Shown here: positions 1,626 to 32,979 of the stretch, in pieces | Numbering within the stretch: position 1 is the stretch's first letter | Layout: each line of letters opens with the position of its first letter | DNA from: Cytophagaceae bacterium | Lineage (GTDB): Bacteria; Bacteroidota; Bacteroidia; Cytophagales; Spirosomataceae | Assembly: GCA_947450865.1 (NCBI GenBank) | Contig: CANFWR010000008.1 | Span: 1-39,858, forward strand | DNA: 39,858 nt | Reading direction: 5' to 3' | Notes under the pieces: model-generated | Told to the model about the DNA's origin: nothing | Seen by the model: the letters and a program-made list of their open reading frames with translations, nothing else | Database searches by the model: none | Program-made: the position numbers and the translations under genes

Positions 1626-3611
1626 CTAGTCGTTTACAGACGGCTCGCGCCAATCTCCATGTTCTTTTATTAAGGTGATCAATTCATCCACCGCATAATC
1701 GGCTGGAACTGACTTTTTCACTACTTCTTGCCCTTTGTAGAGCGCAATTTTATCTTTTCCAATCCCTACATACCCATAATCTGCATCCGCCATTTCACCC
1801 GGACCATTCACAATGCAGCCCATAATACCAATCTTGATGCCTTTCAGGTGATCCGTTTTTTGGCGAATCATAGCCGTCGTTTCTTGCAAGTCAAATAAGG
1901 TACGACCACAAGACGGACATGAAATGTATTCTGTTTTAGAAATTCGCATTCTACTTGCTTGTAGCGTCCCAAAATTCGTTGAATTACACAAGGCTTCTTT
2001 ATTCTTCGAATGCTTTATGCTTAGCAGCAATCCATCCCCTAAACCATCAATAAACAAGGCGCCACCATCCGTAGGAGCGAACAATTGGAATTGATCATCT
2101 GAAACTGAGGTATAGTTCAAGTGAATTATGACCGGATTTACGATTCCCTTTTCGATCAAATGAAAGAAAGCGCGGCGTAAAGCCGGCATCTGATGCGTAT
2201 TCGTAGAACTTAAAAGAATGACGCAAGTTGAATCAAACAGGTCAGCACCTGACGCTAACTCAGCAGCGTCTATAGAGACGAAATTTAATGTTGAATGCTT
2301 TTGAGGGGCTTTTTGATAATCCGTATAGTCAAATAACGGATATACATAGTCAGAAGGCGTCCAAACCGAGGCATCCTGAATTTGACGTAAACCATTAGGC
2401 AACATAAAATCAAGTGACTGCTGGCCTGTATAAATAAAATCTGCTCCTAGATCATTCATCGCCCATTTATCCGGTTCTGGCAAATAGAAATGTCCTATCG
2501 CTTTTAGATCCGAAATGCTAATGTTCGATTTAGCAGAGAAATCAGCGATTACGCGAGGAACCTGATGCCCGCCTATCGAAAAGATTTCTGTTGTCTTTCT
2601 ACGTGAATGTGCAAAGGGATTAATAGGGGAGTCAAACGCAACAGAATGACCTGAAAAAACGGAAATAGGATCCTGAGACGCGGCACGCGTATCATACCGA
2701 CGCACTAAGTCTTGTGCTACTGGAATTTCAAATTCTGGATCTTCTGTTAATGAAACGCGAATGGTATCTCCTAATCCATCTTCTAATAAAGTGCCAATCC
2801 CTACAGCAGATTTAATCCGACCATCCTCGCCCTCTCCAGCCTCTGTTACCCCTAAGTGCATTGGATATGCCTTAAATCCGCCATCCTTTAATTTCTTACT
2901 TAATAAACGATAAGCTTCCACCATCACCTGTGTATTCGATGATTTCATCGAAAGCACAATGTTGAAATAGTTTTCATCCTCACAAATGCGTAAGAACTCT
3001 AAAGCCGATTCCACCATCCCATGTGGTGTATCACCATAGCGACTTAAAATACGATCTGAAAGCGAACCATGGTTCGTTCCAATACGCATCGCCGTGCCAT
3101 ATTCTTTGCAGATTTTGACTAATGGAAGGAATTTATCCCGAATACGGTCTAGTTCTGATGCATAGGAAGCATCGGTATAATCAATCGTCTCAAAACGTTT
3201 TTTATCAGCATAGTTACCTGGATTGATACGCACCTTTTCCACTATTCTTGCAGCCAATTCAGCTGCGTTAGGGGTAAAGTGAATATCAGCCACTAAAGGT
3301 GTGGTATAACCACGCTCGCGTAATCCTTTTCGAATATTCTCGAGGTTTTGGGCCTCTTTCACAGATGGAGCAGTAATGCGAACTAATTCACAACCGGCAT
3401 CAATCATTCGGATGGATTGCTCAATGGAACCTTGCGTATCCATCGTATCCACTGTAGTCATCGACTGAATTCGAATAGGGAAGTCAGAACCTAAATAGAG
3501 ATCACCTATTTGTACTGGGATAGTATTACGTCTTTCATACGCATAGAGCGACGAAGCGTACTGATTTCCATCAGCAATAAGAGGATCTGTCAAATTCAAC
3601 ATGTTAGACAT
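1626..3611 (-). CDS. ispG: 4-hydroxy-3-methylbut-2-enyl diphosphate synthase, three-domain type
   Basis: IspG (GcpE) converts 2-C-methyl-D-erythritol 2,4-cyclodiphosphate to HMBPP in the MEP isoprenoid pathway. The N-terminal TIM barrel starts near PVQIGDLYLG and carries IQSMTTVDTMD. The C-terminal half holds the [4Fe-4S] ligands, cysteines at CPSC (about residues 565 and 568) and MGC (about 599), followed by the IVNGPGEMADADYGYVG signature. At 661 aa it is much longer than the roughly 370-aa enterobacterial enzyme because of an extra domain of about 270 residues in the middle, as known for Bacteroidota, Chlamydiae and plants. The ORF track begins at a TTG (3629), but that TTG is part of a perfect -7 promoter element, so the ATG at 3611 is the better start. 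Confidence 0.93.
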   Translation of the reverse strand: MSNMLNLTDPLIADGNQYASSLYAYERRNTIPVQIGDLYLGSDFPIRIQSMTTVDTMDTQGSIEQSIRMIDAGCELVRITAPSVKEAQNLENIRKGLRERGYTTPLVADIHFTPNAAELAARIVEKVRINPGNYADKKRFETIDYTDASYASELDRIRDKFLPLVKICKEYGTAMRIGTNHGSLSDRILSRYGDTPHGMVESALEFLRICEDENYFNIVLSMKSSNTQVMVEAYRLLSKKLKDGGFKAYPMHLGVTEAGEGEDGRIKSAVGIGTLLEDGLGDTIRVSLTEDPEFEIPVAQDLVRRYDTRAASQDPISVFSGHSVAFDSPINPFAHSRRKTTEIFSIGGHQVPRVIADFSAKSNISISDLKAIGHFYLPEPDKWAMNDLGADFIYTGQQSLDFMLPNGLRQIQDASVWTPSDYVYPLFDYTDYQKAPQKHSTLNFVSIDAAELASGADLFDSTCVILLSSTNTHQMPALRRAFFHLIEKGIVNPVIIHLNYTSVSDDQFQLFAPTDGGALFIDGLGDGLLLSIKHSKNKEALCNSTNFGTLQASRMRISKTEYISCPSCGRTLFDLQETTAMIRQKTDHLKGIKIGIMGCIVNGPGEMADADYGYVGIGKDKIALYKGQEVVKKSVPADYAVDELITLIKEHGDWREPSVND

Positions 3612-10862: not shown

Positions 10863-11709
10863 CTTTCTCGATCAAAGACCTAATTTGGCCTTCTGGGTCT
10901 TTAGAAAATTCATTCGTGATGCGATTCGCTAAAATAGCATTCAATGAAATCATTTCGTGCCCCATAGCACCCCCAAAAGCGTAATAGGCAGCAGTTTCCA
11001 TTTCGATATTGGTAATTTCTTGTTCACCTAACTTAGCAGCAGCGACTTTTTCTAAAAAATCGGGTCTTATCGAATGCATTCGAATCGTACGACCCTGCGG
11101 AGCATAAAATCCTGGTGCCGTTAAGGTAACTCCATTATACGCTTTCAACGGCGCAAATTGAACGCAAAGTGAAGCACTAGCTTTGGCTGCATATAGAGGC
11201 AATGGATAATCAATTGCTTTAGTCCAAGCGGCTAAAAAATCTTCAGATATCGACATTACAGAATCAAAACCGTAGAATTGGGCTAAATTATCAAATCCAA
11301 TCGCAGCAGTCGAAATCAAAATCGAATCCACTGGGATATGCGCTTGAATACTTCCTGATGTACCTATTCGGATGAGCCGCAAGGATCTTTTTTCGGTTTT
11401 CTCCAGACGCGTTTGGAAATCAATATTGACCAAAGCGTCTAATTCATTCATCACAATCTCCACATTATCCGCTCCAATACCGCTGGATAATACACCGATC
11501 TTTTTACCCCTTAAAACGCCTAAATGAGTCACAAATTCCCTTTTATGAACGATTTCAGTCACTTCATCAAAAAAGGCAGAAACAGTGGGAACACGCTCTG
11601 GATCACCCACCAAAATAAGGGTATCCGGAATTTGATCAGGCCGTAAGTTCAAATGATAGGAACTTCCATCCGGATTTATAATCAAGTCTGTGGGAGAGAA
11701 ATAGGTCAT
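10843..11709 (-). CDS. Nucleoside phosphorylase, uridine phosphorylase-like
   Basis: 288 aa. A PNP_UDP-family enzyme for phosphorolysis of nucleosides to base and ribose-1-phosphate. Visible motifs are LVGDPERVP (phosphate binding), SGIGADNVEIVMNEL, RLIRIGTSGS and the substrate-binding NIEMETAAYYAFGG. It is closer in form to uridine phosphorylase than to trimeric PNP, but base preference is not certain. The ORF track starts at a TTG (11715) that is the last part of a perfect TAnnTTTG promoter element; the ATG at 11709 is preferred and gives MTYFSPTDLIINPDG. Salvage role in the cytosol. Confidence 0.88.
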   Translation of the reverse strand: MTYFSPTDLIINPDGSSYHLNLRPDQIPDTLILVGDPERVPTVSAFFDEVTEIVHKREFVTHLGVLRGKKIGVLSSGIGADNVEIVMNELDALVNIDFQTRLEKTEKRSLRLIRIGTSGSIQAHIPVDSILISTAAIGFDNLAQFYGFDSVMSISEDFLAAWTKAIDYPLPLYAAKASASLCVQFAPLKAYNGVTLTAPGFYAPQGRTIRMHSIRPDFLEKVAAAKLGEQEITNIEMETAAYYAFGGAMGHEMISLNAILANRITNEFSKDPEGQIRSLIEKAIALIA

Positions 11710-11712
11710 GCG

Positions 11713-11720
11713 CAAATTTA
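11713..11720 (-). promoter_or_regulatory. -7 promoter element of the nucleoside phosphorylase gene
   Basis: TAAATTTG on the minus strand, a perfect TAnnTTTG, only three bases (CGC) before the ATG at 11709. A leaderless transcript starting at or next to the A of the ATG is predicted. Confidence 0.55.
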
Positions 11721-11750
11721 TTGATAATTTTCCAATGTAATAAGCCCCTC

Positions 11751-12191
11751 ATGAAAAGCACCAAGTCTCAAATACAGGCAAATCTGCGTTCCATCTTGGA
11801 AAATACGCTAGAAGAAGCTCGTAGAGAATATGTTTTGGCCAAAGAATCCCGCGATTCTGATACAAAAAGTAGTGCCGGAGATAAATTTGAAACGGGTCGA
11901 GAGATGATGCAACGAGAAATGGATAAGCTAAGTGCTTTGGTAGATAATACCCTTAATTCTATCGCCAAATTAGACAGACTAGCGGATTTACCTGCTTCAG
12001 CAGTCATTTCTGAGGGAAGCCTAGTAGAAACAGATCAAGAAACTTATTTTATTTCCATCGGATACGGCAAACTCGATTCCATTTACGCAATTTCCATTGA
12101 ATCACCACTTGGAGTCGAATTAAAGGGCAAAAAAGTGGGGGATCGCGTCGAAATGCGCGGCCGAAATATCACCATTAAATCAATCTTATGA
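11751..12191 (+). CDS. GreA/GreB-like protein of Bacteroidota
   Basis: 146 aa. An N-terminal helical, coiled-coil-like segment (about residues 5-75) contains DTKSSAGDKFETGREMMQREMDKL, and a C-terminal beta-rich FKBP-like domain contains GSLVETDQETYFISIGYGKL and SPLGVELKGKKVGDRVEMRG. This is the layout of Gre-type transcription factors that act in the RNA polymerase secondary channel. Related Bacteroidota proteins are often mislabelled 3-oxoacyl-ACP synthase; nothing here supports that. Whether it stimulates transcript cleavage is not shown. The ATG at 11751 is preferred over the upstream TTG at 11721. Its stop overlaps the next start as ATGA, so the genes are translationally coupled. Confidence 0.7.
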   Translation: MKSTKSQIQANLRSILENTLEEARREYVLAKESRDSDTKSSAGDKFETGREMMQREMDKLSALVDNTLNSIAKLDRLADLPASAVISEGSLVETDQETYFISIGYGKLDSIYAISIESPLGVELKGKKVGDRVEMRGRNITIKSIL

Positions 12192-12514
12192 AAAATGCAC
12201 ACTATCTCTATTTAGTTCTTTCCCTTGTAGGGGGGAGCATCACCTTTTACTATGTATACGAGGGAATGATGCTAAACAACGGGAAATTTGATGTCATTGA
12301 TTTTGTCCAAAGCACTTGGACGGCAAACCCTTACGCTAAAAGTTTAAGTTGTGACTTTTGGACCGGCGCCATCGCAGGCACCTTTTTTATACTGGCAGAA
12401 GGATTACGGATTAAAATCAAATACCTGTACCTTTATTTATTGGCAACCGTTTTAATAGGTTTTGCCTTTGCATTTCCCTTATTTTTATTCGTTAGACATA
12501 GACAATTAGCCTAA
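12188..12514 (+). CDS. DUF2834 membrane protein
   Basis: 108 aa with three predicted transmembrane helices: LYLVLSLVGGSITFYYVY, FWTGAIAGTFFILAEGL, and YLLATVLIGFAFAFPLFLFV, ending in the RHRQL tail. The FPLFLFVR ending and the W-T-A-N-P-Y/D-F-W loop match the DUF2834 family. Function unknown. It overlaps the Gre-like gene by four bases and is followed five bases later by a DUF1801 gene, inside a compact four-gene operon. Confidence 0.75.
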   Translation: MKNAHYLYLVLSLVGGSITFYYVYEGMMLNNGKFDVIDFVQSTWTANPYAKSLSCDFWTGAIAGTFFILAEGLRIKIKYLYLYLLATVLIGFAFAFPLFLFVRHRQLA

Positions 12515-12519
12515 TATTT

Positions 12520-12864
12520 ATGGAAGAATACATCAAGACCTTTCCGGAGGCCACGCAGAAAATTTTAATTGAAGTCCGTGATGCGATTCGTTCGGTCGTA
12601 CCGGAGGAAACAGAAGAAACGATGTCTTACGGGATGCCCACCTTCAAGTTAAATGGTAATTTAATCCACTTTGCGGCCTGGAATAATCATTTAGGTTTTT
12701 ATCCAACCCCTAGCGGGATTAAGAATTTTGTACAAGAATTAGCTCCCTACGAGGGTTCAAAAGGAGCGATTAAGTTTCCGTATCATTCACCTATGCCTTT
12801 GGAACTCATTAAAGAGATTACCTTATTTAGAGTTCAGGAGAATTTAGCCAAAAAGAAACGATGA
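12520..12864 (+). CDS. DUF1801 / YdhG-type protein
   Basis: 114 aa. EEYIKTFPEATQKILIEVRDAIRSVVPE, ETMSYGMPTFKLNG and HLGFYPTPSGIKNF are the conserved segments of the DUF1801 (YdhG, sometimes called iron-chaperone-like) family of small alpha/beta cytosolic proteins. C-terminal KGAIKFPYHSPMPLELIKEI also fits. The biochemical role is unproven. The stop overlaps the ATG of the following serine hydrolase gene (ATGA), a coupling arrangement. Confidence 0.8.
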   Translation: MEEYIKTFPEATQKILIEVRDAIRSVVPEETEETMSYGMPTFKLNGNLIHFAAWNNHLGFYPTPSGIKNFVQELAPYEGSKGAIKFPYHSPMPLELIKEITLFRVQENLAKKKR

Positions 12865-14366
12865 AAAAACTCCTATTCTGCTGCCTCCTTGCGGCAACTT
12901 TCAGCCTCAATGCTCAAACGAATGAAGAAAAGATCCATTCATTCATTCCCACCCTTGATTCCCTATTTAAACAGCAAGCGAACCTTTCTAAAATGCCTGG
13001 TCTCGTATATGGAATCGTATATAATGGCCGCTTAATTCATTCCAATGCGCTAGGTCTCGCACAAATCGAGAACGGCATAAAGGCCGACAAAACGATTGAT
13101 TTTCGCATTGCTTCAATGTCCAAAAGCTTTGCCAGCATGGCCATTCTTCAGCTGAGAGATGCGGGGAAATTACGCTTAGACGATCCGGCAGCCAATTACA
13201 TTCCGGAATTGAAAACCACTCAATCGCTCACAAAAGATGCCCCTGTCATCACCATTCGTCATTTATTAACACATGCGGCTGGATTTCCAGAAGATAATCC
13301 TTGGGGCGATCGCCAATTAGGCATTTCAGATGAGACCTTTAGAGCGATGATCAAAAAAGGAATTACTTTCTCGACAAACCCAGGCGTGAGCTATGAATAC
13401 AGCAATATGGGTTTTGCGATGTTAGGTTTAATCATCAAAAACGTGAGTGGCCAAAGCTACCAATCTTACATCAAAGAACACATTTTCAAGCCCTTAGGAA
13501 TGAATAATACCTATTGGGAATACAGTGAAGTCCCGGCAAACAAATTAGCCTATGGATACCGTTGGCTAGATAATAAATGGGTAAAACAACCCATGGAGCA
13601 CGATGGAGCCTATGGTGCGATGGGGGGATTGATCACTACTTTGGAAGATTTCAGCAAATACACGGCTTTGCACTTATCTGCCTGGCCAGAGCGAGATGAA
13701 ACAGAAAAAGGCCCACTTAAACGTAGTTCCTTACGAGAAATGCAATTCCCTTGGAATATCAGCGGATTTAATCCCAAATACACCTATCCAAACGGCCGAA
13801 TCGGTAGTTCCTTTACTTCGTATGGCTATGGTTTAAGCTTCTTACAAGATGATCAAGGAAGACGCTCTGTGGGACATTCAGGAGGATTACCTGGTTTTGG
13901 AAGTAATTGGCGGATTTATCCAGATTATGATTTAGGTATCATTTCCTTCGCGAATGTTACCTATGCACCCGCTAGTTTTATCAATCTCAAAGTGCTCGAT
14001 TCCTTAATTTCTTCTACTCAGCTAAGTCCTAGAAAATTACCGGCGTCTGCCATTTTAAAGCAAAGACAATCCGAATTAGTTCGCTTATTACCGGAATGGA
14101 AGAATGCGCCTGAATCAGGTATTTTCGCCGAAAACTTCTTTCTAGATTATTTCCCAGATAAGTTAGCAGCTGAAGCAAAGGCTATTTTTGAAAAGATTGG
14201 AACCATTCGATCCATTCAAGAAATCGAACCAGAAAATAACCTGAGAGGCACCTTTCGAATCATTGGCGAAAAGGGAAATGCAGCAGTGTACTTTACGCTA
14301 AGTCCTGAAACTCCAGCTCTCATCCAGGAATACCATATCCAAGAAATAAAAAAGGCTCATAATTGA
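12861..14366 (+). CDS. Secreted serine hydrolase, class C beta-lactamase fold
   Basis: 501 aa. A signal peptide (MKKLLFCCLLAATFSLNAQ) precedes a beta-lactamase/DD-peptidase-like domain of about 370 residues. Catalytic residues are S85-x-x-K88 in SMSKSF, the YSN triad in YEYSNMGF, and HSG in VGHSGGLPGFGS. The C-terminal 110 residues form a separate small domain often found in this group. It is likely a periplasmic or surface esterase, peptidase or carboxypeptidase; a true beta-lactamase role is not implied. Last gene of the four-gene operon. Its stop codon lies inside a bidirectional terminator and overlaps the end of convergent trhO by ten bases. Confidence 0.88.
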   Translation: MKKLLFCCLLAATFSLNAQTNEEKIHSFIPTLDSLFKQQANLSKMPGLVYGIVYNGRLIHSNALGLAQIENGIKADKTIDFRIASMSKSFASMAILQLRDAGKLRLDDPAANYIPELKTTQSLTKDAPVITIRHLLTHAAGFPEDNPWGDRQLGISDETFRAMIKKGITFSTNPGVSYEYSNMGFAMLGLIIKNVSGQSYQSYIKEHIFKPLGMNNTYWEYSEVPANKLAYGYRWLDNKWVKQPMEHDGAYGAMGGLITTLEDFSKYTALHLSAWPERDETEKGPLKRSSLREMQFPWNISGFNPKYTYPNGRIGSSFTSYGYGLSFLQDDQGRRSVGHSGGLPGFGSNWRIYPDYDLGIISFANVTYAPASFINLKVLDSLISSTQLSPRKLPASAILKQRQSELVRLLPEWKNAPESGIFAENFFLDYFPDKLAAEAKAIFEKIGTIRSIQEIEPENNLRGTFRIIGEKGNAAVYFTLSPETPALIQEYHIQEIKKAHN

Positions 14367-21768: not shown

Positions 21769-22155
21769 TTATATCGTTGCGTATTTCTGCTGAACCTTTT
21801 TTAGCAGTTCATTCAATTCCGCTTTTTTAAACTCAAAATAGGGAAGAGCTAAATCGAATTCATCGATCAATAGTTGAAAATACTTCCGCTCAAAAACCAA
21901 AAATTGCGAGTAGCTCGAAGTCATTGCTGAATACACATGATTTTTCTCTTCGATCGCTTCCTCTATCCCAATAAATACGCCTTTACGATCAATCGATACA
22001 AAGCCCACAGGACTTTCTAACACTAAACTTCCTTCTTGCAGGTAAAACACAAATTCTGCTTTTTGGCCTTGACGAAATAAATATTCATCTGGCAGATAGC
22101 GGAGTTCGATTCCACTGGCTAACACTTTCCGTTCCGTATCTGAAAAATTGTTCAT
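21769..22155 (-). CDS. Stand-alone cyclic-nucleotide-binding-domain protein
   Basis: 128 aa. The sequence reads as the effector domain of a Crp/Fnr-type regulator: ELRYLPDEYLFRQGQKAEFVFYLQEGSLVLE is the beta-roll start, and the C-terminal helix (FDLALPYFEFKKAELNELLKKVQQKY) corresponds to the dimerisation helix. There is no helix-turn-helix domain after it and no frameshifted remnant downstream. The phosphate-binding cassette is not clearly conserved, so cAMP binding is doubtful. It is divergent from ccoI, and an FNR/FixK-like palindrome sits in the shared 130-bp gap. It may act as a sensor or dimer partner in oxygen or redox regulation; that is inference. Confidence 0.7.
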   Translation of the reverse strand: MNNFSDTERKVLASGIELRYLPDEYLFRQGQKAEFVFYLQEGSLVLESPVGFVSIDRKGVFIGIEEAIEEKNHVYSAMTSSYSQFLVFERKYFQLLIDEFDLALPYFEFKKAELNELLKKVQQKYATI

Positions 22156-22202
22156 TGGCTTAAATAATAAGGCGAAAATACAAGGATATAAAATCCCAAT
22201 AC

Positions 22203-22216
22203 CTGACGTTGATCAG
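22203..22216. promoter_or_regulatory. FNR/FixK-like palindrome upstream of ccoI
   Basis: CTGA-CGTTGA-TCAG: perfect inverted half sites with a six-base spacer, giving the TGA-N6-TCA core of Crp/Fnr-family operators. It lies between the divergent cNMP-domain gene and ccoI. The same CTGA-N6-TCAG format recurs before ccoS. The REC-Crp/Fnr protein encoded at 30714-31769 is the obvious candidate ligand. Confidence 0.55.
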
Positions 22217-22273
22217 TTTTCAAATTGCTATTTATCACGATTAGCAAAGCGGAATCTCCGGAAATTTGAACAT

Positions 22274-22281
22274 TAGATTTT
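22274..22281 (+). promoter_or_regulatory. Putative -7 element of ccoI
   Basis: TAGATTTT matches TAnnTTTG at 7 of 8 positions and is followed by AACC and the ATG at 22286, predicting a leaderless ccoI transcript. The palindrome centre would then lie roughly 75 bases upstream of the transcription start. Confidence 0.4.
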
Positions 22282-22285
22282 AACC

Positions 22286-24694
22286 ATGTACACGGAGGTT
22301 CTTGAAGAGGTTATTTGTTATCATTGTGGAGATGAATGTTCAGAAACGCCCATCATTCATCAGGAAAAGACTTTTTGTTGCCATGGATGCGAACAAGTTT
22401 ATGAGTTACTGAATGATAATCAGCTAGAAGAATATTATAACTGTGATCTTAATCCGGGCATTTCTCCTACAGACAAGAATTTTGATTTTCTAAACAACAA
22501 AGCATTCAGGGATCGCTTAATCACCTTTTCGAACGCAGAGTTTTCCAAAGTCAGCTTCCATCTTCCAGCGATTCACTGCCGCTCTTGTCTGTATCTACTG
22601 GAGAATCTGCAAAAGTTGAATCCAGAGATTATTAAGACCAGTTTGAATTTTGGGAAGAAGGACCTAACGGTTTGGTTTAAAGAAGATCAACTTAGTTTAG
22701 GCGCACTTGCTACTTTGATAGCTAGCTTAGGTTATGAACCGCATATTTCGAATGCGGCCGAAATACCCCAAAATAATGATCAAAAAAAGCTATTTCTTAA
22801 GCTCGGAATCGCCGGTTTTTGCGCCGGTAATGCCATGCTTTTCAGCTTTCCGGAGTATTTAGGTATTGAAGATGGATCCTTACAGCAGTTGTTTAGCTAT
22901 TTGAATCTTGCTTTAGGAACTGTAGCAGTATTCTATTCCGGTTCAGACTATTTCAGCAATGTCTACGCGCACCTCAAATTGCGCAAAATGACCATCGAAT
23001 TACCCATTTTATTGGGCATTTTGGTAGGATATGGTCGTAGTGTATTTGAAATTTTATCACATACGGGGGCGGGCTACATCGATTCAGTTTCAGGCCTCAT
23101 ATTCTTCTTATTAATAGGGAAGTGGTTCCAGCAGAAATCCTTTGATTTCCTCTCATTTGAACGCAATTACAAGGCCTATTTCCCTTTAGTGGTCACAAAA
23201 ATCGCCAATGGCCAAGAAGAAACCGCTCCCTTAGAGGATATTCAAGTGGGGGATCGCTTATTGATTCGAAACCAGGAAATCATTCCAGCCGATGCCTATT
23301 TATTAAAGGGCCAAAGTCAAATGGATTACAGCTTTGTCACCGGCGAGAGTGAATTAATTCCTATTCAGGCGGGTCAATCCATTTATGCAGGAGGAAAACA
23401 CCTAGGGGAAGCCATCGAAATTCAAATCAGCAAAGAGCTAAATCAAAGTCATTTAACTCAACTTTGGGAACAACAAGCCTTTAAAGATCCGAATCGCAAA
23501 ACGGAAAACTGGGAAAATTTTGCGAATAAAGTGGGCATGTATTTCACGGTGGTGCTTCTAAGCCTAGCAACGATGGCGGGTATCTATTGGTACAATGTAG
23601 ATCAAAGCCGTTGGTCTAATGCAGTAGTCAGTATTCTGGTGATTGCCTGTCCTTGTGCCTTGGCCGTTTCATATCCTTTTGCCTTAGGCCACGGAATCAG
23701 GTGGCTCGCCAAGTTTAACTTTTTTATCAAAGACATTCAGACATTCGAGCGAATGGCACAGGTCGACACCTTGGTTTTTGATAAAACAGGAACGCTAACA
23801 TTACAAAGTCAACAAGAACCTAGCGTTCATTTCAACCGTGATTTGAACGATACAGAATGGAATGCCATTTACTCTTTGGTATTTCAATCAACCCATCCAC
23901 TTTCGAAGCAGGTAAAAAAATTCCTACAACATCGTAGTATTTTACCCTTAACCGAATTTAAAGAACTCAGTGGAAAAGGGCTTCAAGCGACATTTGATGA
24001 CTTATTTGTCCATATTGGAAGCGCTAAATACACATTGAATAAACTCAATTCACCGGAAGGATTTATAAGCTCGGAAACACGCTTATTCGTTTCAATCAAC
24101 CAAGAGCCCATCGGATTCATCGAATTTCCGTGGGAAAACAGACCAGGCGTAGAAGGGATGTTGCATAGCTTAAGACATCAATATGAAGTCCATTTGATTT
24201 CAGGTGATAAAAAAGAACACGCGGCACACGTATTGGATTGGTTTGAAAATCAAGATCATGTAAAATTCGAATGTAGTCCTTTGGAGAAGATGGAATATAT
24301 CCAAGCACTTCAAAAACAAGGCAAAATCGTAGCGATGATAGGGGATGGATTGAACGATGCGGGAGCCTTAAAACAGGCAGCAGTAGGTATCGCCGTTTCA
24401 GACGATCATCTGCATTTTACTCCCTCATCTGATGCCATTTTAAAGGGATCCGAATTGCCTCGATTAGGGGAGTATTTTCGCTACTCTAAATTTGGCCTAC
24501 AACTCATCAAAGCTAGCTTTTTACTCTCCTTAGTCTATAATGGTTTTGGGTTAAGTTATGCGATCCAAGGCAACTTATACCCCTTGGTAGCAGCCATTTT
24601 AATGCCGATCAATTCCATTAGTATGTTAGTGATTGCGACCTGGGGGATGAATTGGAAAGGACGGCAATTATACCGTTCTAAAATCAGATTTTAA
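22286..24694 (+). CDS. ccoI: Copper-transporting P-type ATPase for cbb3 oxidase assembly (CcoI/FixI)
   Basis: 802 aa. Delivers copper across the inner membrane for the CuB centre of cbb3 oxidase. The N-terminus carries a cysteine-rich zinc-binding-type domain (CYHCGDECSE, CCHGCEQVYELL), then an HMA domain with HCRSCLYLLENL. Eight transmembrane helices include the ion-binding CPC in IACPCALAVS. Phosphorylation motif DKTGTLT, TGES loop (VTGESELIP), the SThPLS motif and the hinge GDGLNDAGAL are all present. First gene of the cbb3 locus; its context with ccoS and ccoNO identifies it as CcoI rather than a general CopA. An FNR-like palindrome lies about 70 bases upstream of its start. Confidence 0.93.
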   Translation: MYTEVLEEVICYHCGDECSETPIIHQEKTFCCHGCEQVYELLNDNQLEEYYNCDLNPGISPTDKNFDFLNNKAFRDRLITFSNAEFSKVSFHLPAIHCRSCLYLLENLQKLNPEIIKTSLNFGKKDLTVWFKEDQLSLGALATLIASLGYEPHISNAAEIPQNNDQKKLFLKLGIAGFCAGNAMLFSFPEYLGIEDGSLQQLFSYLNLALGTVAVFYSGSDYFSNVYAHLKLRKMTIELPILLGILVGYGRSVFEILSHTGAGYIDSVSGLIFFLLIGKWFQQKSFDFLSFERNYKAYFPLVVTKIANGQEETAPLEDIQVGDRLLIRNQEIIPADAYLLKGQSQMDYSFVTGESELIPIQAGQSIYAGGKHLGEAIEIQISKELNQSHLTQLWEQQAFKDPNRKTENWENFANKVGMYFTVVLLSLATMAGIYWYNVDQSRWSNAVVSILVIACPCALAVSYPFALGHGIRWLAKFNFFIKDIQTFERMAQVDTLVFDKTGTLTLQSQQEPSVHFNRDLNDTEWNAIYSLVFQSTHPLSKQVKKFLQHRSILPLTEFKELSGKGLQATFDDLFVHIGSAKYTLNKLNSPEGFISSETRLFVSINQEPIGFIEFPWENRPGVEGMLHSLRHQYEVHLISGDKKEHAAHVLDWFENQDHVKFECSPLEKMEYIQALQKQGKIVAMIGDGLNDAGALKQAAVGIAVSDDHLHFTPSSDAILKGSELPRLGEYFRYSKFGLQLIKASFLLSLVYNGFGLSYAIQGNLYPLVAAILMPINSISMLVIATWGMNWKGRQLYRSKIRF

Positions 24695-24695
24695 T

Positions 24696-24709
24696 CTGAT
24701 TAAAGTCAG
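24696..24709. promoter_or_regulatory. FNR/FixK-like palindrome upstream of ccoS-ccoNO
   Basis: CTGA-TTAAAG-TCAG, the same format as the site before ccoI, starting two bases after the ccoI stop and 51 bases before the ccoS ATG. It implies a second, regulated promoter for the structural genes of the oxidase. Confidence 0.55.
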
Positions 24710-24760
24710 GTTTTGCGAGGGGCTTTGTCCCGAAATTGCAACAAATAAAATGCGAAGACA

Positions 24761-24916
24761 ATGGAAATAATGTACCTAATGATCGGATTAAGCCTCTTTA
24801 TGGCGATCGGATTTGTTATTGCCTTTGTTTGGTCCATTAAAACGGGACAACAAGAGGATTTAATCACTCCGGCGATGCGCATTTTACAAGATGACCAAAA
24901 AACAAACAAGCTATGA
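24761..24916 (+). CDS. ccoS: cbb3 oxidase assembly protein CcoS
   Basis: 51 aa, too short for the ORF track, which shows only an antisense shadow here. The sequence MEIMYLMIGLSLFMAIGFVI begins a single transmembrane helix ending in AFVWSIKTGQQEDL, followed by a short polar tail containing TPAMRIL. This is the usual CcoS layout: one helix, then a motif with GQ(Y/F/Q)-D-(D/L). CcoS is required for insertion of haem or copper in cbb3 oxidase. The gene sits exactly between ccoI and ccoNO, and its TGA overlaps the ccoNO ATG (ATGA), a translational-coupling arrangement. Confidence 0.9.
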   Translation: MEIMYLMIGLSLFMAIGFVIAFVWSIKTGQQEDLITPAMRILQDDQKTNKL

Positions 24917-27039
24917 GTACAAAAACTACCTCATTTGAGCAATTTTATTACGACAATAAAATCGTTCGAAATTTCTCCATTGCCACGATTATTTGGGGTA
25001 TTGTGGGGATGCTAGTAGGTGTGATAATCGCCACGCAACTTTTCGCGCCTTCTTTGAACATTACCCAATACGGAACTTTTGGCCGTATCAGACCACTACA
25101 TACTAATGCAGTGATTTTTGCCTTTGTGGGTAACGCCATTTTTGCGGGGGTATACTACTCATTGCAACGCCTTTTGAAAGCGCGTATGTTCAGTGATTTC
25201 TTATCTAATTTCCATTTCTGGGGTTGGCAATTAATCATTGTAGCGGCAGCGATCACCTTACCCTTAGGGATCACAACTTCTCATGAATATGCAGAATTAG
25301 AGTGGCCTATCGATATTGCGATAACCTTAGTTTGGGTGGCATTTGGCATTAATATGTTTGGTACCATCTTTAAAAGAAGAGAGCGTCACTTGTATGTGGC
25401 GATTTGGTTCTACATCGCGACGTTTATTACGGTGGCTGTATTGCACTTGACGAACTCAATGCAATTACCTATTTCGATATTTAAATCCTATTATGTGTAT
25501 GCAGGCGTCCAAGATGCACTTATACAATGGTGGTATGGCCATAATGCGGTGGCGTTTTTCTTAACGACTCCTTTCTTAGGGTTGATGTATTATTTCTTGC
25601 CAAAAATGGCGAATCGTCCGGTCTACTCATACCGTCTTTCGATACTGCACTTTTGGGCCTTGATCTTTATTTACATCTGGGCTGGACCTCACCACTTGTT
25701 GTATTCGTCATTACCTGATTGGGCTCAGTCTTTAGGGGTTGTTTTCTCGATTATGTTAATTGCTCCGTCTTGGGGTGGTATGATCAATGGTCTTTTAACC
25801 TTACGCGGTGCTTGGGATCAAGTTAGAGAGAATACCATTTTGAAATTTATGGTAGTGGGGATTACCTGCTACGGTATGGCCACTTTTGAAGGCCCCATGT
25901 TATCGTTGAAGAATATTAATGCGATTGCCCACTTTACAGACTGGATCGTAGCACACGTACACGTAGGAGCTTTAGGCTGGAATGGTTTCTTGACTTTCGC
26001 GATGTTGTATTGGTTAGTTCCACGCATCTTCCAAACAAATCTTTATTCTGAGAAATTAGTTAAAACCCACTTCTGGATTGGAACAATTGGAATCGCTTTC
26101 TACGCCATCCCCATGTACATCTCTGGTTTCACCCAAGGGATGATGTGGAAACAATTCACGGCAGAAGGCACTTTGCAATATGGCAACTTCCTAGATACAA
26201 CTTTGCAATTATTGCCGATGCACATGATGCGCGCATTAGGCGGAACCTTGTACTTAACAGGGGCAATTTTAATGGCCTTTAACTTGTTCAAAACCATGGC
26301 TCAAGGTACTTTGTTAGCGAATGAGAAAGCGGAAGCAGCCCCATTAGCCATCATCGAGGAGCAACACGAAAGTGATGGACACTGGCACCGTTGGATTGAA
26401 AAACGCCCTATCCAGTTATTAGTGGCTTCTTTAGTGATGATTTTAGTGGGTTCTTTGGTGGAATTAGTTCCTACGTTTATGGTCAAATCAAACGTTCCTA
26501 CGATTGAATCCGTAAAACCATATAGCTCTTTAGAATTAGAAGGACGTGATATTTATATCCGCGAAGGTTGTGTGAGTTGTCACTCGCAATTAGTTCGTCC
26601 TTTTAGAAGTGAGACAGAACGCTATGGAGAATTCTCTAAATCAGGAGAGTTCGTTTACGATCATCCATTCCTATGGGGATCCAAACGTACAGGACCCGAT
26701 TTGCATAGAGAAGGAGGGAAATACCCTGATTCTTGGCACTATCACCACATGAGAGAACCAAGTAGCATGTCACCTGGTTCGATTATGCCAAATTATGCGT
26801 GGCTTTTAGAGCAAACGTTGAACACATCTCAAACGCAGGATAAGTTAGCCGCGATGAAAAAATTAGGTGTGCCTTATTCTACAGATGAGATTGCTAATGC
26901 GGTGAAAGACTTACATACACAGGCCAAAGTGATCCAAGCTAATTTAGCTGCAGAGAAAATTAAGGTAAGCCAAGACAAAGAAATTATTGCTTTGATTGCC
27001 TACTTACAACGTTTAGGTACGGACATTTCTAAAAAATAA
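24913..27039 (+). CDS. ccoNO: cbb3 cytochrome c oxidase, fused subunits I and II (CcoN-CcoO)
   Basis: 708 aa. The N-terminal part (to about residue 480) is CcoN with 12 or more helices. Haem and CuB ligands are seen in LHTNAVIF, QWWYGHNAV, AGPHHLLYSSLPDW and DWIVAHVHVGALGW. After one further helix (about 490-510) comes a CcoO-type cytochrome c domain with EGCVSCHSQLVRPF and the axial Met in GSIMPNYAWL. In Proteobacteria these are two proteins; the fusion is known in Bacteroidota. It is the catalytic core of a high-affinity terminal oxidase in the inner membrane. Start overlaps the end of ccoS by four bases. Confidence 0.96.
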   Translation: MSTKTTSFEQFYYDNKIVRNFSIATIIWGIVGMLVGVIIATQLFAPSLNITQYGTFGRIRPLHTNAVIFAFVGNAIFAGVYYSLQRLLKARMFSDFLSNFHFWGWQLIIVAAAITLPLGITTSHEYAELEWPIDIAITLVWVAFGINMFGTIFKRRERHLYVAIWFYIATFITVAVLHLTNSMQLPISIFKSYYVYAGVQDALIQWWYGHNAVAFFLTTPFLGLMYYFLPKMANRPVYSYRLSILHFWALIFIYIWAGPHHLLYSSLPDWAQSLGVVFSIMLIAPSWGGMINGLLTLRGAWDQVRENTILKFMVVGITCYGMATFEGPMLSLKNINAIAHFTDWIVAHVHVGALGWNGFLTFAMLYWLVPRIFQTNLYSEKLVKTHFWIGTIGIAFYAIPMYISGFTQGMMWKQFTAEGTLQYGNFLDTTLQLLPMHMMRALGGTLYLTGAILMAFNLFKTMAQGTLLANEKAEAAPLAIIEEQHESDGHWHRWIEKRPIQLLVASLVMILVGSLVELVPTFMVKSNVPTIESVKPYSSLELEGRDIYIREGCVSCHSQLVRPFRSETERYGEFSKSGEFVYDHPFLWGSKRTGPDLHREGGKYPDSWHYHHMREPSSMSPGSIMPNYAWLLEQTLNTSQTQDKLAAMKKLGVPYSTDEIANAVKDLHTQAKVIQANLAAEKIKVSQDKEIIALIAYLQRLGTDISKK

Positions 27040-27043
27040 GCGC

Positions 27044-27232
27044 ATGTTTAAGCAATTTATATCGAACATTCCAGGAGCAGATAATTATCTGATTTTCTCG
27101 CTGCTAACCTTTTTGACATTCTTCGTTCTAGTAGGCGTCTACTTGATTTGGATGGACAAAAAGCACCTCGTTGAAATGGAGCAAATGCCCTTCAATGAGG
27201 GAAATAACCTAAATGAGAACTCAAAACCTTAA
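27044..27232 (+). CDS. ccoQ: cbb3 oxidase small subunit CcoQ
   Basis: 62 aa with one transmembrane helix (IFSLLTFLTFFVLVGVYLIWM) and a charged C-terminal tail. Position between ccoNO (four bases upstream) and ccoP (four bases downstream), length and topology fit CcoQ/FixQ, which stabilises the oxidase. Sequence conservation in this family is weak, so the call rests mostly on context. Confidence 0.8.
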   Translation: MFKQFISNIPGADNYLIFSLLTFLTFFVLVGVYLIWMDKKHLVEMEQMPFNEGNNLNENSKP

Positions 27233-27236
27233 TATT

Positions 27237-27980
27237 ATGTCAGTTAACGTTGTTGAAATTTGGTTAGTAAGTATGATCCTAATGACTGGGATTGTCATTT
27301 TAGTCGTAACGCTCCAATTGCATGTAGCCTTGAAAAAACTGGCCGAAAAAGCTGCCCCGGAAACGGCTGAAAAGCAATCCTGGTGGGATGGATTCACAGG
27401 CTTAAAACCTTTGGAAAAAGAAAAAGATCTCTTAATGGATCACAAATACGATGATATTGCGGAATTAGATAATCCTACACCGCCCTGGTTCATGTATTTA
27501 TTTTATTTAACAATTCTTTTCGCTGTCGTTTATGGCCTGTATTACCACGTTTACCAAGATGGGAATATTCAAGAGACGGAATATAAAACCGAGGTGTCGA
27601 TTGCCGAAAAAGCGAGAGTAGAATACATGAAGAAGTTTGCAAATTCGGTAAACGAAGACAATGTGACCGTGGTAAAAGAAGCTAAAGATTTAACAGAAGG
27701 GTCACAAATTTATTCGACAAATTGCGTAGCTTGTCATGGTGATAAGGGGCAAGGAGGCGTAGGACCTAACTTAACGGATAAGTTTTGGTTACATGGTGGA
27801 GACATAAAATCCATCTTCAAGACCCTAACGCATGGCGTTCCCGAAAAGGGGATGATTGCCTGGAATAAAACCTTAAACCCATTACAAATTCAAAAAGTAG
27901 CCTCTTTCATCTTATCACTGCAAGGATCTAATCCTCCAGGTGCGAAGGAGCCACAAGGAACAGAAACTAAAACACCCTGA
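27237..27980 (+). CDS. ccoP: cbb3 oxidase subunit III (CcoP), single haem
   Basis: 247 aa from the ATG at 27237. An N-terminal helix (VVEIWLVSMILMTGIVILVV), a linker, the CcoP N-terminal signature YDDIAELDNPTPPWFMYLF with a second helix, and one cytochrome c domain: CVACHGDKGQGGVGPNLTDKFW with the axial Met probably in GMIAWNKTL. Proteobacterial CcoP has two CxxCH haem sites; only one is present, so electron entry is simplified. The ORF-track start (27213) would overlap ccoQ; the ATG four bases after the ccoQ stop gives the expected N-terminus. It hands electrons to the CcoO domain. Confidence 0.93.
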   Translation: MSVNVVEIWLVSMILMTGIVILVVTLQLHVALKKLAEKAAPETAEKQSWWDGFTGLKPLEKEKDLLMDHKYDDIAELDNPTPPWFMYLFYLTILFAVVYGLYYHVYQDGNIQETEYKTEVSIAEKARVEYMKKFANSVNEDNVTVVKEAKDLTEGSQIYSTNCVACHGDKGQGGVGPNLTDKFWLHGGDIKSIFKTLTHGVPEKGMIAWNKTLNPLQIQKVASFILSLQGSNPPGAKEPQGTETKTP

Positions 27981-28230: not shown

Positions 28231-29616
28231 ATGTCAGAATTCAATATAGATAATGATGATTACCGGAACCATCTGTACAACCAGACGAAGGATGGAAAAC
28301 GACTTTGGATCTACCCAGGTCGCATTATCGGTCAGTTTTATCGCCTAAGAACGTATTTCTCCTACCTGTTATTAACGCTATTATTTGGATTACCTTGGTT
28401 AGAATATAAAGGAAATCCAATATTTCTGTTCAATGTATTGGAGCGAAAATTCATCTTTTGGGGTGTGCCATTTTTTCCTCAGGACTTTCATTTAGTGGCC
28501 TTAGGACTCGTAGCATTCCTCTTGTTTGTCAGTTTGTTTACCGTATTATTCGGTCGCATTTGGTGTGGCTGGGCTTGCCCGCAAACCATCTTCATGGAGA
28601 TGTTATTTCGGAAGATTGAATATTGGATAGAGGGGGATGATAAAGCGCAAAGAAAACTGGCTGAATCCCCTTGGAATACCGAGAAGATTTTGAAAAGGGG
28701 AACAAAGCATATCTTGTTCATTCTCTTGTCATTTGCCATAGCGAATACCTTTTTGATGTATATCATTAGCAAAAAGGAATGGTTAAAATTAGTGACCGAG
28801 TCTCCACTAGACCATGTAGTAGGATTAGTCGCCATTCTTATTTTTACCGCCGTCTTTTACTTTGTATTTGCCCGATTTAGAGAGATGGTTTGTATGGTTA
28901 TTTGCCCCTATGGTCGTTTGCAAGGGGTTTTATTAGATAACAATTCGATTCTAGTTCAATATGATCATAAGAGAGGAGAACCGCGCGGAAAAGGAGACGA
29001 TAAAGGCGCCTGCATCGATTGCCATTGGTGTGTACGCGTTTGTCCTACGGGAATTGATATCCGAAATGGTAGTAATCAATTAGAATGCATTGGATGCACG
29101 GCGTGTATTGATGCATGTGATATGGTGATGGAAAAGACCCACCAGCCTACCGGTTTAATTCGCTATGATTCATTGAATGGAGTTAATGCAGGCCAAAAAC
29201 TTAAATTCACCTTACGGATTGGAGCTTATAGCACCGTTTTGGCCTTAATCATCGCGGGATTAGCCTATATGCTCCTGACTCGGACAAATTTTGAAACCAC
29301 ACTGCTGCGTACGCCAGGAATGATTTTCCAGCTGGATGAAAAGACCCATGAGGTAAGTAATTTGTACCAAATGGAGGTTTTGAATAAGTCGATGGAAAAG
29401 CAAAGCTTTAGGATTGAAGCGCCTGAGCCATTCAAGATTGTTTGGGTAGGGAAACCTCTGAATTTAGTGGGCCCAGGAAAAATGGCAAAAGGGGAGTTTT
29501 TCCTCCGAATCAAACCAGGCAAATGGAAGAATGGAGAGAAGGTTCCGGTACAAATAACCGAAACAAGTGGAAAAGAAGAGATTATCAAAACTAGTTTTAT
29601 ACAACCAGATGAATAA
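28231..29616 (+). CDS. ccoG: cbb3 oxidase accessory protein CcoG (FixG/RdxA)
   Basis: 461 aa. Membrane-bound iron-sulfur protein that reduces Cu(II) to Cu(I) during oxidase assembly. Five or so helices; the NapH-like signature FGRIWCGWACPQTIFMEMLF and MVCMVICPYGRLQGVL; two 4Fe-4S clusters in CIDCHWCVRVCPTG and CIGCTACIDACD; and a C-terminal periplasmic immunoglobulin-like domain after the last helix (about residues 330-350). The start follows a terminator T tract by one base. The downstream fixH ATG overlaps its end by eight bases. Confidence 0.95.
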   Translation: MSEFNIDNDDYRNHLYNQTKDGKRLWIYPGRIIGQFYRLRTYFSYLLLTLLFGLPWLEYKGNPIFLFNVLERKFIFWGVPFFPQDFHLVALGLVAFLLFVSLFTVLFGRIWCGWACPQTIFMEMLFRKIEYWIEGDDKAQRKLAESPWNTEKILKRGTKHILFILLSFAIANTFLMYIISKKEWLKLVTESPLDHVVGLVAILIFTAVFYFVFARFREMVCMVICPYGRLQGVLLDNNSILVQYDHKRGEPRGKGDDKGACIDCHWCVRVCPTGIDIRNGSNQLECIGCTACIDACDMVMEKTHQPTGLIRYDSLNGVNAGQKLKFTLRIGAYSTVLALIIAGLAYMLLTRTNFETTLLRTPGMIFQLDEKTHEVSNLYQMEVLNKSMEKQSFRIEAPEPFKIVWVGKPLNLVGPGKMAKGEFFLRIKPGKWKNGEKVPVQITETSGKEEIIKTSFIQPDE

Positions 29617-30055: not shown

Positions 30056-30717
30056 TGCATACCTGGTATTACACCTTTCTGATTGGTTTAGCAGGAAGCT
30101 GGCATTGCTTCGCCATGTGTGGACCGATAGTGGCTCAAATTAACGCGCGCGGGAAATCACCTGCTAGGATGCTGCTTTATCCGCTTGGACGTATTTTCAT
30201 ATATGGCGCACTGGGTTATTTTGTAGCTGGAATAGGTTCTATTTGGTTATTTCCGAATCTATGGTCCTATTATTATGTACTAGCTGGCGTTTTTATACTC
30301 CTAATTATTAGCCAAAATATAGGGGAGGGGCCGCTCGCTTTTTTACATCAATCCATAGGAAAGAAATTGCAAAAAATAGGGGCAAAAATGGGGCCTTCAG
30401 GGTATTTCCTTTTAGGAATGGCCAATGGACTATTACCTTGTGGTCTCGTGGTGGCCGGCTTAAGCGTGGCGTTGATTCAACCCAAACCTCTCTACGGAGC
30501 TTTTAGTATGGTTGTCTTAGGAATTGCGACATTACCTGCCTTGCAACTGTATATTTGGGGATCTTCCAAATTAAATAAACAACCCATCTTTCAATACCTG
30601 GGTTGGTTTGTTGCAGGAATACTCCTTTTCAGGGGAGCTTGGGGCATCGGAATGGCGTATTCTGACTATTTAGCCCATTCGAGCCTAAGTCCGATTATCT
30701 GTCATCCGTTTAGCTAG
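30055..30717 (+). CDS. Sulfite exporter TauE/SafE family protein (cbb3-linked)
   Basis: 220 aa, about six transmembrane helices. FLIGLAGSWHCFAMCGPIV is the hallmark of the cbb3-associated TauE/SafE (heavy-metal transport/DsbD-like) subgroup, with His and Cys in the first helix; GMANGLLPCGLVVAGL is the second repeat. The CxxCG/PCG cysteines suggest copper handling, consistent with the last position in the oxidase locus. The ORF-track start (29983) runs through fixH in another frame; the ATG at 30055 overlaps the fixH stop by one base. It converges on the REC-Crp gene with a four-base overlap of stop codons. Confidence 0.88.
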   Translation: MHTWYYTFLIGLAGSWHCFAMCGPIVAQINARGKSPARMLLYPLGRIFIYGALGYFVAGIGSIWLFPNLWSYYYVLAGVFILLIISQNIGEGPLAFLHQSIGKKLQKIGAKMGPSGYFLLGMANGLLPCGLVVAGLSVALIQPKPLYGAFSMVVLGIATLPALQLYIWGSSKLNKQPIFQYLGWFVAGILLFRGAWGIGMAYSDYLAHSSLSPIICHPFS

Positions 30718-31769
30718 TATTTGAGTTTAGCTAGTCCTTCAATGTTTTTCAAGGTCATTTCGCCCCCTTTTACATCTAAGTATCCCTCTTTTTTGAAGTC
30801 ACTCAAAGTCCGAATGACCGATTCAGTGGCAGTTCCCACACGAGAAGCGAGATCTTCGCGCGAAAGTTTTATCACTAAAGGCTCAGAACTGTTAGTTCCA
30901 TAGGTTTGTGCTAGTTCGACTAAAACCATGGCTACCCGCATACGTAGACTCTGGTAAGCCATTTCGACCATCAACTTTTCGTTTTTCAACAAATAGCTGG
31001 TTAAAGCTTTTCTGAAAAAGACTTCCAAGTGAATGTTTTCCTTTATTCGTTGTTGGAAATCGACAGCTGAGACGCTGATGATTTGAGATTCTTCTAAGGC
31101 TTCCGCACTTTCGCGGTAAGATTGGTTTTCTAAGATGTCGACAAAGCCGAAAAATTCACCTTCTTGAATAAAGGAGGTGATAAAATACTTGCCATCCTTG
31201 TTCGTGTGGTAGGCTTTTACTTTTCCTTTGGCCAAATAATACAAACGAATCGGATGATCGCCTTCTGCATAAATCACCTGTTTTTTCGCGTGAGTTTGTG
31301 TTTTCTTTTCTCCTTCCCAAGTGGGCAGATCTAAAAAGCGTAACGCCTCATGAACTGAAGTAACATCGGAAATCCCTTCAATGACCGGTGTTATCGTTTT
31401 TGCTTTCTTCAAACGAGCATCGATGGCTTTTAATAATTCCACTTCTTGGAAAGGTTTTGTCAAATAATCATCAGCACCCATTTCCATACCCTTGCGCATA
31501 TCGGCTCGATCGGTTTTAGCGGTCAAGAAAATAAAGGGAATCGAGGCTAATTCAGGTTGACTGGAGAAGACTTGTAAAACGCCAAATCCATCCAAATTAG
31601 GCATCATAATATCACAAATCACTACATCAGGATTCCAAGAACGTGCTAATCGTACACCTTCCAAGCCATCAGAAGCGGTTTCAACTTTAAATCCAGATAA
31701 TTCCAACAGCTCTGCCGTATTCTCCCGAATATCCACACTGTCTTCAATAATTAATATGCGCTTGCTCAT
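30714..31769 (-). CDS. Response regulator: receiver fused to Crp/Fnr regulator
   Basis: 351 aa with three domains. Receiver, residues 1-120: phospho-acceptor Asp in DVVICDIMMPNLDG, LTAK threonine and DYLTKPF lysine. Cyclic-nucleotide-binding-like beta-roll, about 165-280: YAEGDHPIRLYYLAKGKVKAYH. Crp-type winged helix-turn-helix, about 295-350: KLSREDLASRVGTATESVIRTLSDFKKEG. The recognition helix keeps the E-x4-R pattern that reads TGA-type half sites. No N-terminal FNR cysteine cluster is present, so oxygen sensing must come through phosphorylation. Four bases downstream of its partner kinase and tail to tail with the cbb3 locus. It looks like FixJ receiver and FixK output in one chain. Confidence 0.92.
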   Translation of the reverse strand: MSKRILIIEDSVDIRENTAELLELSGFKVETASDGLEGVRLARSWNPDVVICDIMMPNLDGFGVLQVFSSQPELASIPFIFLTAKTDRADMRKGMEMGADDYLTKPFQEVELLKAIDARLKKAKTITPVIEGISDVTSVHEALRFLDLPTWEGEKKTQTHAKKQVIYAEGDHPIRLYYLAKGKVKAYHTNKDGKYFITSFIQEGEFFGFVDILENQSYRESAEALEESQIISVSAVDFQQRIKENIHLEVFFRKALTSYLLKNEKLMVEMAYQSLRMRVAMVLVELAQTYGTNSSEPLVIKLSREDLASRVGTATESVIRTLSDFKKEGYLDVKGGEMTLKNIEGLAKLKY

Positions 31770-31773
31770 AATG

Positions 31774-32979
31774 CTATCTCCATGGAAACTGAATATGTAA
31801 TTCAGTCCCTTTATTTAATTCACTCTTTATTTCTACTTTTCCACCCAATAAGCGCATATATCGATCCACTAGGTGCAATCCTAAACCGGTTCCTTGAATA
31901 ACCGTGGCATTTCCGCCTCGGAAGAAACGCTCAAATAAATGTTTTTGATCCTCTTCACTAATTCCAATCCCTTGATCAATAATGGTAATCATTACTTGAT
32001 TCGTTTGTTTCTCCGCTTTCAACATAATTTCCTTCTGCGAGAATTTCAAGGCATTAGACAAACCATTAAAAATGACTTTACGTAAAATTGATGCATCTTG
32101 GATACAAGTGAAATCTTCATCCAATTGCAGGTGAATGGCCTGCTGATAGGTACTAAAGTCCGAAAGAATATCTTGTAAAAAGTCGCGAATAGAAAACTCG
32201 GTTGGGTGAATTTCTAATTTACCATCCTCTAATTTACCTACTGACAAAAACTCTTCTAAAATCTCTGTCAAATGACTCACAGACGATTTTATGCGATTGA
32301 TATGTTGCTCTCTTTTAGGTTGATCCTCTGCCTTCGTATATTTTTCAATCAAAGTTGCAGAACCCAATATGGAAGTTAAAGGCGTTCTGAATTCATGCGA
32401 GGCCATAGATACAAAACGCGTCTTTAAATCCCCTAATACTTTCTCTTTCTCCAGTGATATTTCTAATTCTTTCGCATTTACCTCTAGTTTATCTAGCGTA
32501 TTTTGAAGCGCCTGTGTTCTAGCAGCCACTTCTTGCTCTAACGTTTCGTTCAGTTGGTTGATTTGTTGATTCTTTAAAATCAACTCCATTTCTACTTTCC
32601 GCTTGAGTGTTAAATCACTAACGAATGCGATGTAATGCATACCACGCTCCGCTTTAAAGTGACTTAGAGAAATTTCAATAGGGAATAAGGAACCATCTTT
32701 TCGTTTGGCCTTTAAATCTAAACCCACGCCCATGGGTCTAGAGATGGGTTTTTCTGCTCCCAAATTATTCAGATGAGCGTGATGTCTATCCTTCAGATGA
32801 TTCGGAATTAATAAAGAAATATTTTCGCCATTTAATTCATTCTCTTCATAACCAAATAACTTATCTGCGAATCGATTCGACAGAATAATTTCAAAAAGCG
32901 AATTGGTAACTATAATGCCAATGGCCGCCTCTTGGAAGATAGCTTCAAACTCGAATCCGGCTTGTATTTGATTAGGCAT
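31774..32979 (-). CDS. Soluble PAS-domain sensor histidine kinase (FixL-like)
   Basis: 401 aa, no transmembrane helix. PAS domain about residues 8-125 with ANRF-like LSNRFADKLFGYEENELNG, SLLIPNHLKDRHHAHL and KRKDGSLFPIEISLSHF. A coiled coil (about 130-180) leads to HisKA with the phospho-acceptor His in MASHEFRTPLTS and an HATPase with NGLSNALKF, IIDQGIGISEED and GTGLGLHLVDRY. H66 in KDRHHAH falls where FixL carries its haem-binding His, but the position of the oxygen-contacting Arg is Leu. Encoded with the REC-Crp regulator next to the oxidase genes. Haem binding is a hypothesis; a flavin-free or ligand-binding PAS is possible. Confidence 0.9.
   Translation of the reverse strand: MPNQIQAGFEFEAIFQEAAIGIIVTNSLFEIILSNRFADKLFGYEENELNGENISLLIPNHLKDRHHAHLNNLGAEKPISRPMGVGLDLKAKRKDGSLFPIEISLSHFKAERGMHYIAFVSDLTLKRKVEMELILKNQQINQLNETLEQEVAARTQALQNTLDKLEVNAKELEISLEKEKVLGDLKTRFVSMASHEFRTPLTSILGSATLIEKYTKAEDQPKREQHINRIKSSVSHLTEILEEFLSVGKLEDGKLEIHPTEFSIRDFLQDILSDFSTYQQAIHLQLDEDFTCIQDASILRKVIFNGLSNALKFSQKEIMLKAEKQTNQVMITIIDQGIGISEEDQKHLFERFFRGGNATVIQGTGLGLHLVDRYMRLLGGKVEIKSELNKGTELHIQFPWR

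Follow-up and report, generated by a model that had tools for sequence, protein, structure and literature searches.

The cbb3 oxidase locus carries two conserved palindromes

The locus described here raises the question of which regulator controls the genes of the cbb3 oxidase in Bacteroidota, and through which DNA sites. The literature searched contained no paper naming a regulator or an operator of this oxidase in the phylum, and no description of its control by a REC-Crp/Fnr protein. The locus (Table 1) lies in a window of 39,858 nucleotides, the whole stretch of DNA that was analyzed, from a genome that groups with Aquirufa (Cytophagales). Two copies of the palindrome CTGA-N6-TCAG reported by an earlier sequence-only reading were confirmed letter for letter and in position, each in a gap between genes. 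The first is flanked by the start of a divergent minus-strand gene, about 50 nt away, and by that of ccoI, about 70 nt away; the second begins 2 nt past the ccoI stop codon, about 50 nt before ccoS.

Table 1. Coordinates of the genes, putative operators and predicted promoter elements in the window.
Feature	Position	Strand	Basis or remark
cNMP-binding-domain protein of 128 aa, no DNA-binding domain	21769..22155	-	Pfam PF00027 only
Predicted -7 box TATTTTCG of the divergent cNMP-binding gene	22173..22180	-	operator core to TTCG, 27 nt; composite search
Putative operator 1, CTGACGTTGATCAG	22203..22216	.	core 22204-22215; common to two divergent promoters (predicted)
Predicted -7 box GAAATTTG of ccoI	22261..22268	+	TTTG 49 nt past operator core
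ccoI, copper P-type ATPase	22286..24694	+	PF00122, PF00702, PF12156; heavy-metal ATPase models
Putative operator 2, CTGATTAAAGTCAG	24696..24709	+	core 24697-24708; before ccoS-ccoNO
Predicted ccoS promoter	24711..24739	+	TTTTG (-33-like) right after operator 2; weak -7 box GAAATTGC
ccoS, 51 aa	24761..24916	+	TIGR00847 above cut-off
ccoNO fusion, cbb3 oxidase subunits I/II	24913..27039	+	PF00115 + PF02433; NF011053 above cut-off
ccoP	27213..27980	+	PF14715, PF13442
ccoG	28231..29616	+	TIGR02745 above cut-off
REC-Crp/Fnr fusion, candidate operator reader	30714..31769	-	PF00072 + PF00027 + PF13545
PAS histidine kinase, probable heme sensor and fusion partner	31774..32979	-	PAS + HisKA + HATPase

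The palindrome had been considered too rare for two copies in one locus to be expected by chance. An excess does exist in the window, but with four copies rather than the two claimed (0.5 expected; at least four in 0 of 100 shuffles), the remaining two being intragenic, at 3561 and, within ccoNO, at 25715. Genome-wide, 28 copies were found in 2.38 Mb (177 contigs), and the count is weak evidence alone because this number is close to chance and most copies (22 of 28) lie inside genes. The loose motif is thus frequent within unrelated genes, an outcome that the sequence-only reading had named as damaging, and its genome-wide count, being equal to chance, was dropped as proof. The case for operators rests instead on conservation and promoter geometry.

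Conservation within the genus was assessed in a set of 38 genomes, 24 of which carry ccoI; 22 of these, all Aquirufa, have both gaps readable, and the fusion protein of the source genome is 89-93% identical to those of its close relatives. A TGA-N6-TCA site precedes ccoS at the same place in all 22 genomes, and one precedes ccoI in 20, the other two carrying TAACATACATCA. Column conservation is partly forced by the way sites were selected, whereas selection does not account for their occurrence at a single set position in each gap. The CTGA and TCAG half-sites are mostly retained in the five closest genomes, with varying spacers; in the genus as a whole, both outer and inner bases are looser, the form being mostly (A/C)TGAY-N4-RTCA(G/T) and the inner base often C. 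Loss of the sites from relatives, the second outcome that would have spoken against the earlier proposal, is therefore not what we observed.

The same proposal had described the sites as FNR/FixK operators. Its TGA-N6-TCA core is indeed present at both window sites and in relatives, but these are not canonical anaeroboxes: neither window site matches TTGAT-N4-ATCAA within two mismatches, a search for that sequence gave no excess, and the conserved core is TGAY-N4-RTCA. Taken with the promoter offsets and phylum-level data given below, the sequence evidence supports the two palindromes as conserved operators to which a Crp/Fnr-family protein would bind.

Three further features were noted around such sites. 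An inverted repeat at the end of ccoI, ATCAGATT..AATCTGAT, overlaps site 2; a role as terminator was dismissed because the repeat is not conserved among relatives. A second conserved stretch resembling TTTGTCAC occurs in half of the genomes, 15 nt past operator 1 toward ccoI (window 22231-22238). Elsewhere in the source genome, CTGACTAAAATCAG (G000:C152:671-684) stands some 92 nt ahead of what is probably the gene for a fatty-acid desaturase, an oxygen-using enzyme.

A REC-Crp/Fnr fusion protein is the probable reader of the cco sites

The REC-Crp/Fnr fusion that the sequence-only reading placed beside the locus was confirmed in its domains, and it is the best candidate ligand, as it tracks the cco genes and adjoins them across genera. 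Its cNMP-binding and HTH_Crp_2 domains (PF00027 and PF13545) place it among Crp/Fnr transcription factors; the same output half sets it apart from FixJ, in which a receiver is joined to a LuxR/GerE-type HTH. Across 80 aligned sequences, the phospho-acceptor Asp 53 is kept in all 80 and the recognition helix GTATES[VL]IRTL is nearly invariant. The protein has a single cysteine, C52, and FNR-type iron-sulfur sensing through a 4Fe-4S cluster is excluded by sequence because this lone residue sits in the receiver.

Only three cNMP-binding proteins are encoded in the source genome, namely, the fusion, the regulator CRP2, and the 128-aa protein without HTH. In the 38 genomes, the fusion and ccoI occur together in 23, each alone in 1, and neither in 13, a pattern that derives partly from physical linkage and shared ancestry, many of the genomes being incomplete. 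Outside the genus, the kinase and fusion genes adjoin cco genes in several genera, in differing orientations. We consider it quite probable that the fusion is the protein reading the cco operators.

In one 98% complete genome (G007, L210 ~11000-13000), the cco cluster and the gene for the HTH-less protein are gone from between an SDR gene and a TauE-like gene. The kinase and fusion genes remain there, with the near-invariant arginine of the recognition helix changed to lysine, and no cco-type composite of operator and promoter box is left in this genome. As a single case, this is suggestive only.

An unlikely alternative is that the operators are read mainly by CRP2, a genus-wide regulator, with the fusion governing other targets. 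Of the 38 genomes, 36 encode CRP2, which has an FNR-type E-x-x-S-R helix, and sites of the non-CRP2 type before the gene of a PAP2/haloperoxidase-like lipoprotein persist where the fusion is absent. However, the genes in the neighborhood of CRP2, together with a peroxiredoxin and a cytochrome c gene, carry a distinguishable sequence, GTGAY-N4-RTCAC, whose right-hand C is never found at Aquirufa cco sites, and it is the fusion, not CRP2, that follows the presence of cco and adjoins it in many genera. As the PAP2 site is kept in genomes without the fusion, something else can therefore read such sites, and exclusive reading by the fusion is unproven.

CRP2 itself (G000:C35:13344-13961) has 206 aa, a GEACAISMTC motif with two cysteines and an EVISR helix, and its gene adjoins TauE/SafE. 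GTGAY-N4-RTCAC sites with -7 boxes precede genes for TauE, sulfide:quinone reductase, peroxiredoxin and cytochrome c (including G001:C5:54000-67000), suggesting that these genes may form a sulfide or thiol stress regulon.

Promoter geometry points to activation of three promoters

Bacteroidota promoters carry TAnnTTTG at -7, a motif seen in several publications, and Crp/Fnr proteins activate from about -41.5 (class II) or about -63.5 (class I). On the divergent side of site 1, TTYG was found at offset 27 from the operator in 23 of 24 relatives, often as TACTTTTG, and on the ccoI side TTTG was found at offset 49 in 22 of 24; one row of the offset table (L044) took a look-alike 12 bases off, and the counts are not inflated by it. 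For ccoS, a GAATTTTG-type box lies at offset ~27 in many relatives and is weaker in the source species, and all 22 Aquirufa genomes keep the T-run directly after operator 2. If TTTG is taken as approximately -8 to -5, the operator centers would fall at about -41.5 for the divergent gene, about -63.5 for ccoI and about -41.5 for ccoS. The offsets of 27 for the cNMP-binding gene and ~27 for ccoS thus correspond to class II operator spacing, and the offset of 49 differs from 27 by 22 bp, or two helical turns. The sequence-only reading had counted two regulated promoters, for ccoI and ccoS-ccoNO; apparently there are three, since site 1 is also placed at about -41.5 relative to the gene for the HTH-less protein, whose promoter is the best placed of them.

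One could argue that the sites serve repression or dual control, for example if binding on behalf of the divergent gene lowered ccoI expression. A single divergently shared site would permit such unequal control, and activation is read from spacing alone. We nevertheless judge this very unlikely, as all three spacings match Crp/Fnr activator positions, hemN has the same spacing (see below), and no site overlaps its own -7 box, which argues against repression.

The same operator-promoter unit precedes other genes

The composite of operator and TAnnTTTG was searched for in the 38 genomes, giving about 146 matches against about 14 for a reversed-pattern control, a roughly tenfold difference. The composite unit precedes hemN, also in the source genome (G000:C96), with the operator-promoter spacing seen at the cco sites; sites upstream of hemN occur in most Aquirufa clades and are absent from one. 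It also precedes the gene of a Rieske-type protein (G000:C18 and relatives) and genes of DoxX-like proteins and of the PAP2/haloperoxidase-like lipoprotein. At this last gene, the unit is perfect in the source genome and in relatives (G000:C12:4999-5041). The description of the locus as a self-contained module was thus abandoned, because the unit precedes hemN, the Rieske gene and others as well.

The site type extends to other Bacteroidota

Beyond the genus, 80 REC-Crp/Fnr fusion loci were examined with 10 kb flanks, and a spacer test was run on 33 ccoI or ccoNO upstream regions belonging to 20 non-Aquirufa loci. TGAY-N4-RTCA gave 27 matches in 21 of the 33 regions; other spacers (0 to 10) gave 0-3 matches each, and first-order simulations (500 runs) gave a mean of 0.62 regions with TGAY-N4-RTCA and a maximum of 4. 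In further genera of the phylum, ccoNO is likewise preceded by sites related to operator 2. That a frequent palindrome simply fell into two gaps, as the chance-level genome count of CTGA-N6-TCAG and its mostly intragenic copies might suggest, is refuted by this test and has a negligible probability, given sites that are conserved across the genus and in other genera and keep strictly to a spacer of 4 and to their promoter offsets.

In Pedobacter, all eight regions upstream of ccoI or ccoNO lacked TGAY-N4-RTCA. Instead, the hemN-ccoI-ccoS-ccoNO run that closely follows the fusion gene has a GTGATGATGATCAA-type site at its head, and the recognition helix of the Pedobacter fusion reads GTASETVSRML in place of GTATES[VL]IRTL. 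Four Pedobacter loci (L270, L275, L279 and L280) have hemN ahead of ccoI in one gene run directly after the fusion gene; the TGAT-N4-ATCA site at the head of this run was checked in L270 and L279.

A probable heme-PAS kinase is the likely sensor of the proposed circuit

Since the fusion lacks the iron-sulfur cysteines of FNR, oxygen sensing, if any, would lie in the neighboring PAS kinase, which the sequence-only reading had passed over and which accompanies the fusion in nearly all loci. The best PDB matches of its PAS domain are the heme PAS domains of DosP (1e-13) and FixL (1e-11), and the proximal histidine that serves as heme ligand is present in the window kinase and in 72 of 77 sequences. 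This domain is therefore likely to bind heme. Oxygen is a plausible ligand, though not a certain one, because a leucine replaces the distal arginine of FixL (R220 in BjFixL) in the window kinase; 28 of 77 sequences have arginine there. When oxygen is limiting, Flavobacterium psychrophilum strongly induces its cbb3 and heme biosynthesis genes (PMC9723704), which fits cco and hemN as targets.

Our preferred reading, to which we give a probability of roughly three in four, is that the kinase and fusion form a circuit that activates the cbb3 genes via both operators, low oxygen being the most likely condition. Through its heme-bound PAS domain, the soluble kinase would sense oxygen or a related signal and would then phosphorylate Asp53 in the receiver half of the fusion, which would then bind TGAY-N4-RTCA. 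Operator 2, at about -41.5 of ccoS-ccoNOQP, would support class II activation. Operator 1 would act in both directions, at about -41.5 for the gene of the HTH-less protein and about 22 bp farther from the ccoI promoter (class I), and the same unit elsewhere would recruit hemN and other genes.

This proposed circuit resembles the rhizobial FixL-FixJ-FixK system controlling fixNOQP, which also comprises a FixL-like PAS kinase, a response regulator and a Crp/Fnr activator acting on cbb3 operons and ccoI-type genes. It differs in that receiver and Crp/Fnr activator are combined in one protein, with no LuxR-type FixJ or separate fixK step, and in that the operator is not TTGAT-N4-ATCAA. The hFixL-FxkR-FixK pathway of Rhizobium leguminosarum likewise couples a FixL-type sensor to a non-FixJ receiver protein and drives fixNOQP. 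In that species, FxkR recognizes a K-box ahead of fixK, and the anaerobox is in turn bound by FixK (PMC7888657), whereas the single fused protein proposed here would take on both roles.

Relative to FNR/Anr operators, the sites share the TGA-N6-TCA core, the spacing of about -41.5, and cbb3 and hemN as targets. They differ in their outer bases, which are mostly A/C and G/T and not T and A, in an inner base that is C or T, and in a regulator without iron-sulfur cysteines. Within the same phylum, the F. psychrophilum response is alike in that cbb3 and heme genes rise together at low oxygen; the available part of that source (PMC9723704) names no regulator or operator of the oxidase.

These comparisons suggest that a FixL/FNR-like control of cbb3 in Bacteroidota most likely operates through a fused receiver-Crp/Fnr protein, a FixL-like route without FNR or a separate FixK, although the link between its parts is one that we infer. 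What results is a specific operator, a candidate two-component pair and three predicted transcription starts, about 5 nt beyond the boxes ending at 22268 (ccoI), 24738 (ccoS) and 22173 (the divergent gene, minus strand).

The divergent gene encodes a conserved HTH-less cNMP-binding protein

The cNMP-binding protein encoded divergently from ccoI occurs in all 24 genomes with ccoI and in one more. That it modulates the fusion is a guess. More tentatively than for the circuit itself, and with less than even odds in its favor, we envisage a low-oxygen circuit widespread among aerobic members of the Bacteroidota: a heme-PAS kinase would signal to a one-piece FixJ-FixK, and the co-regulated HTH-less protein would tune it, perhaps by forming a pair with the fusion. 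All relatives measured, Flectobacillus among them, have a protein of 121-130 aa, and the conserved absence of an HTH argues against a decayed gene.
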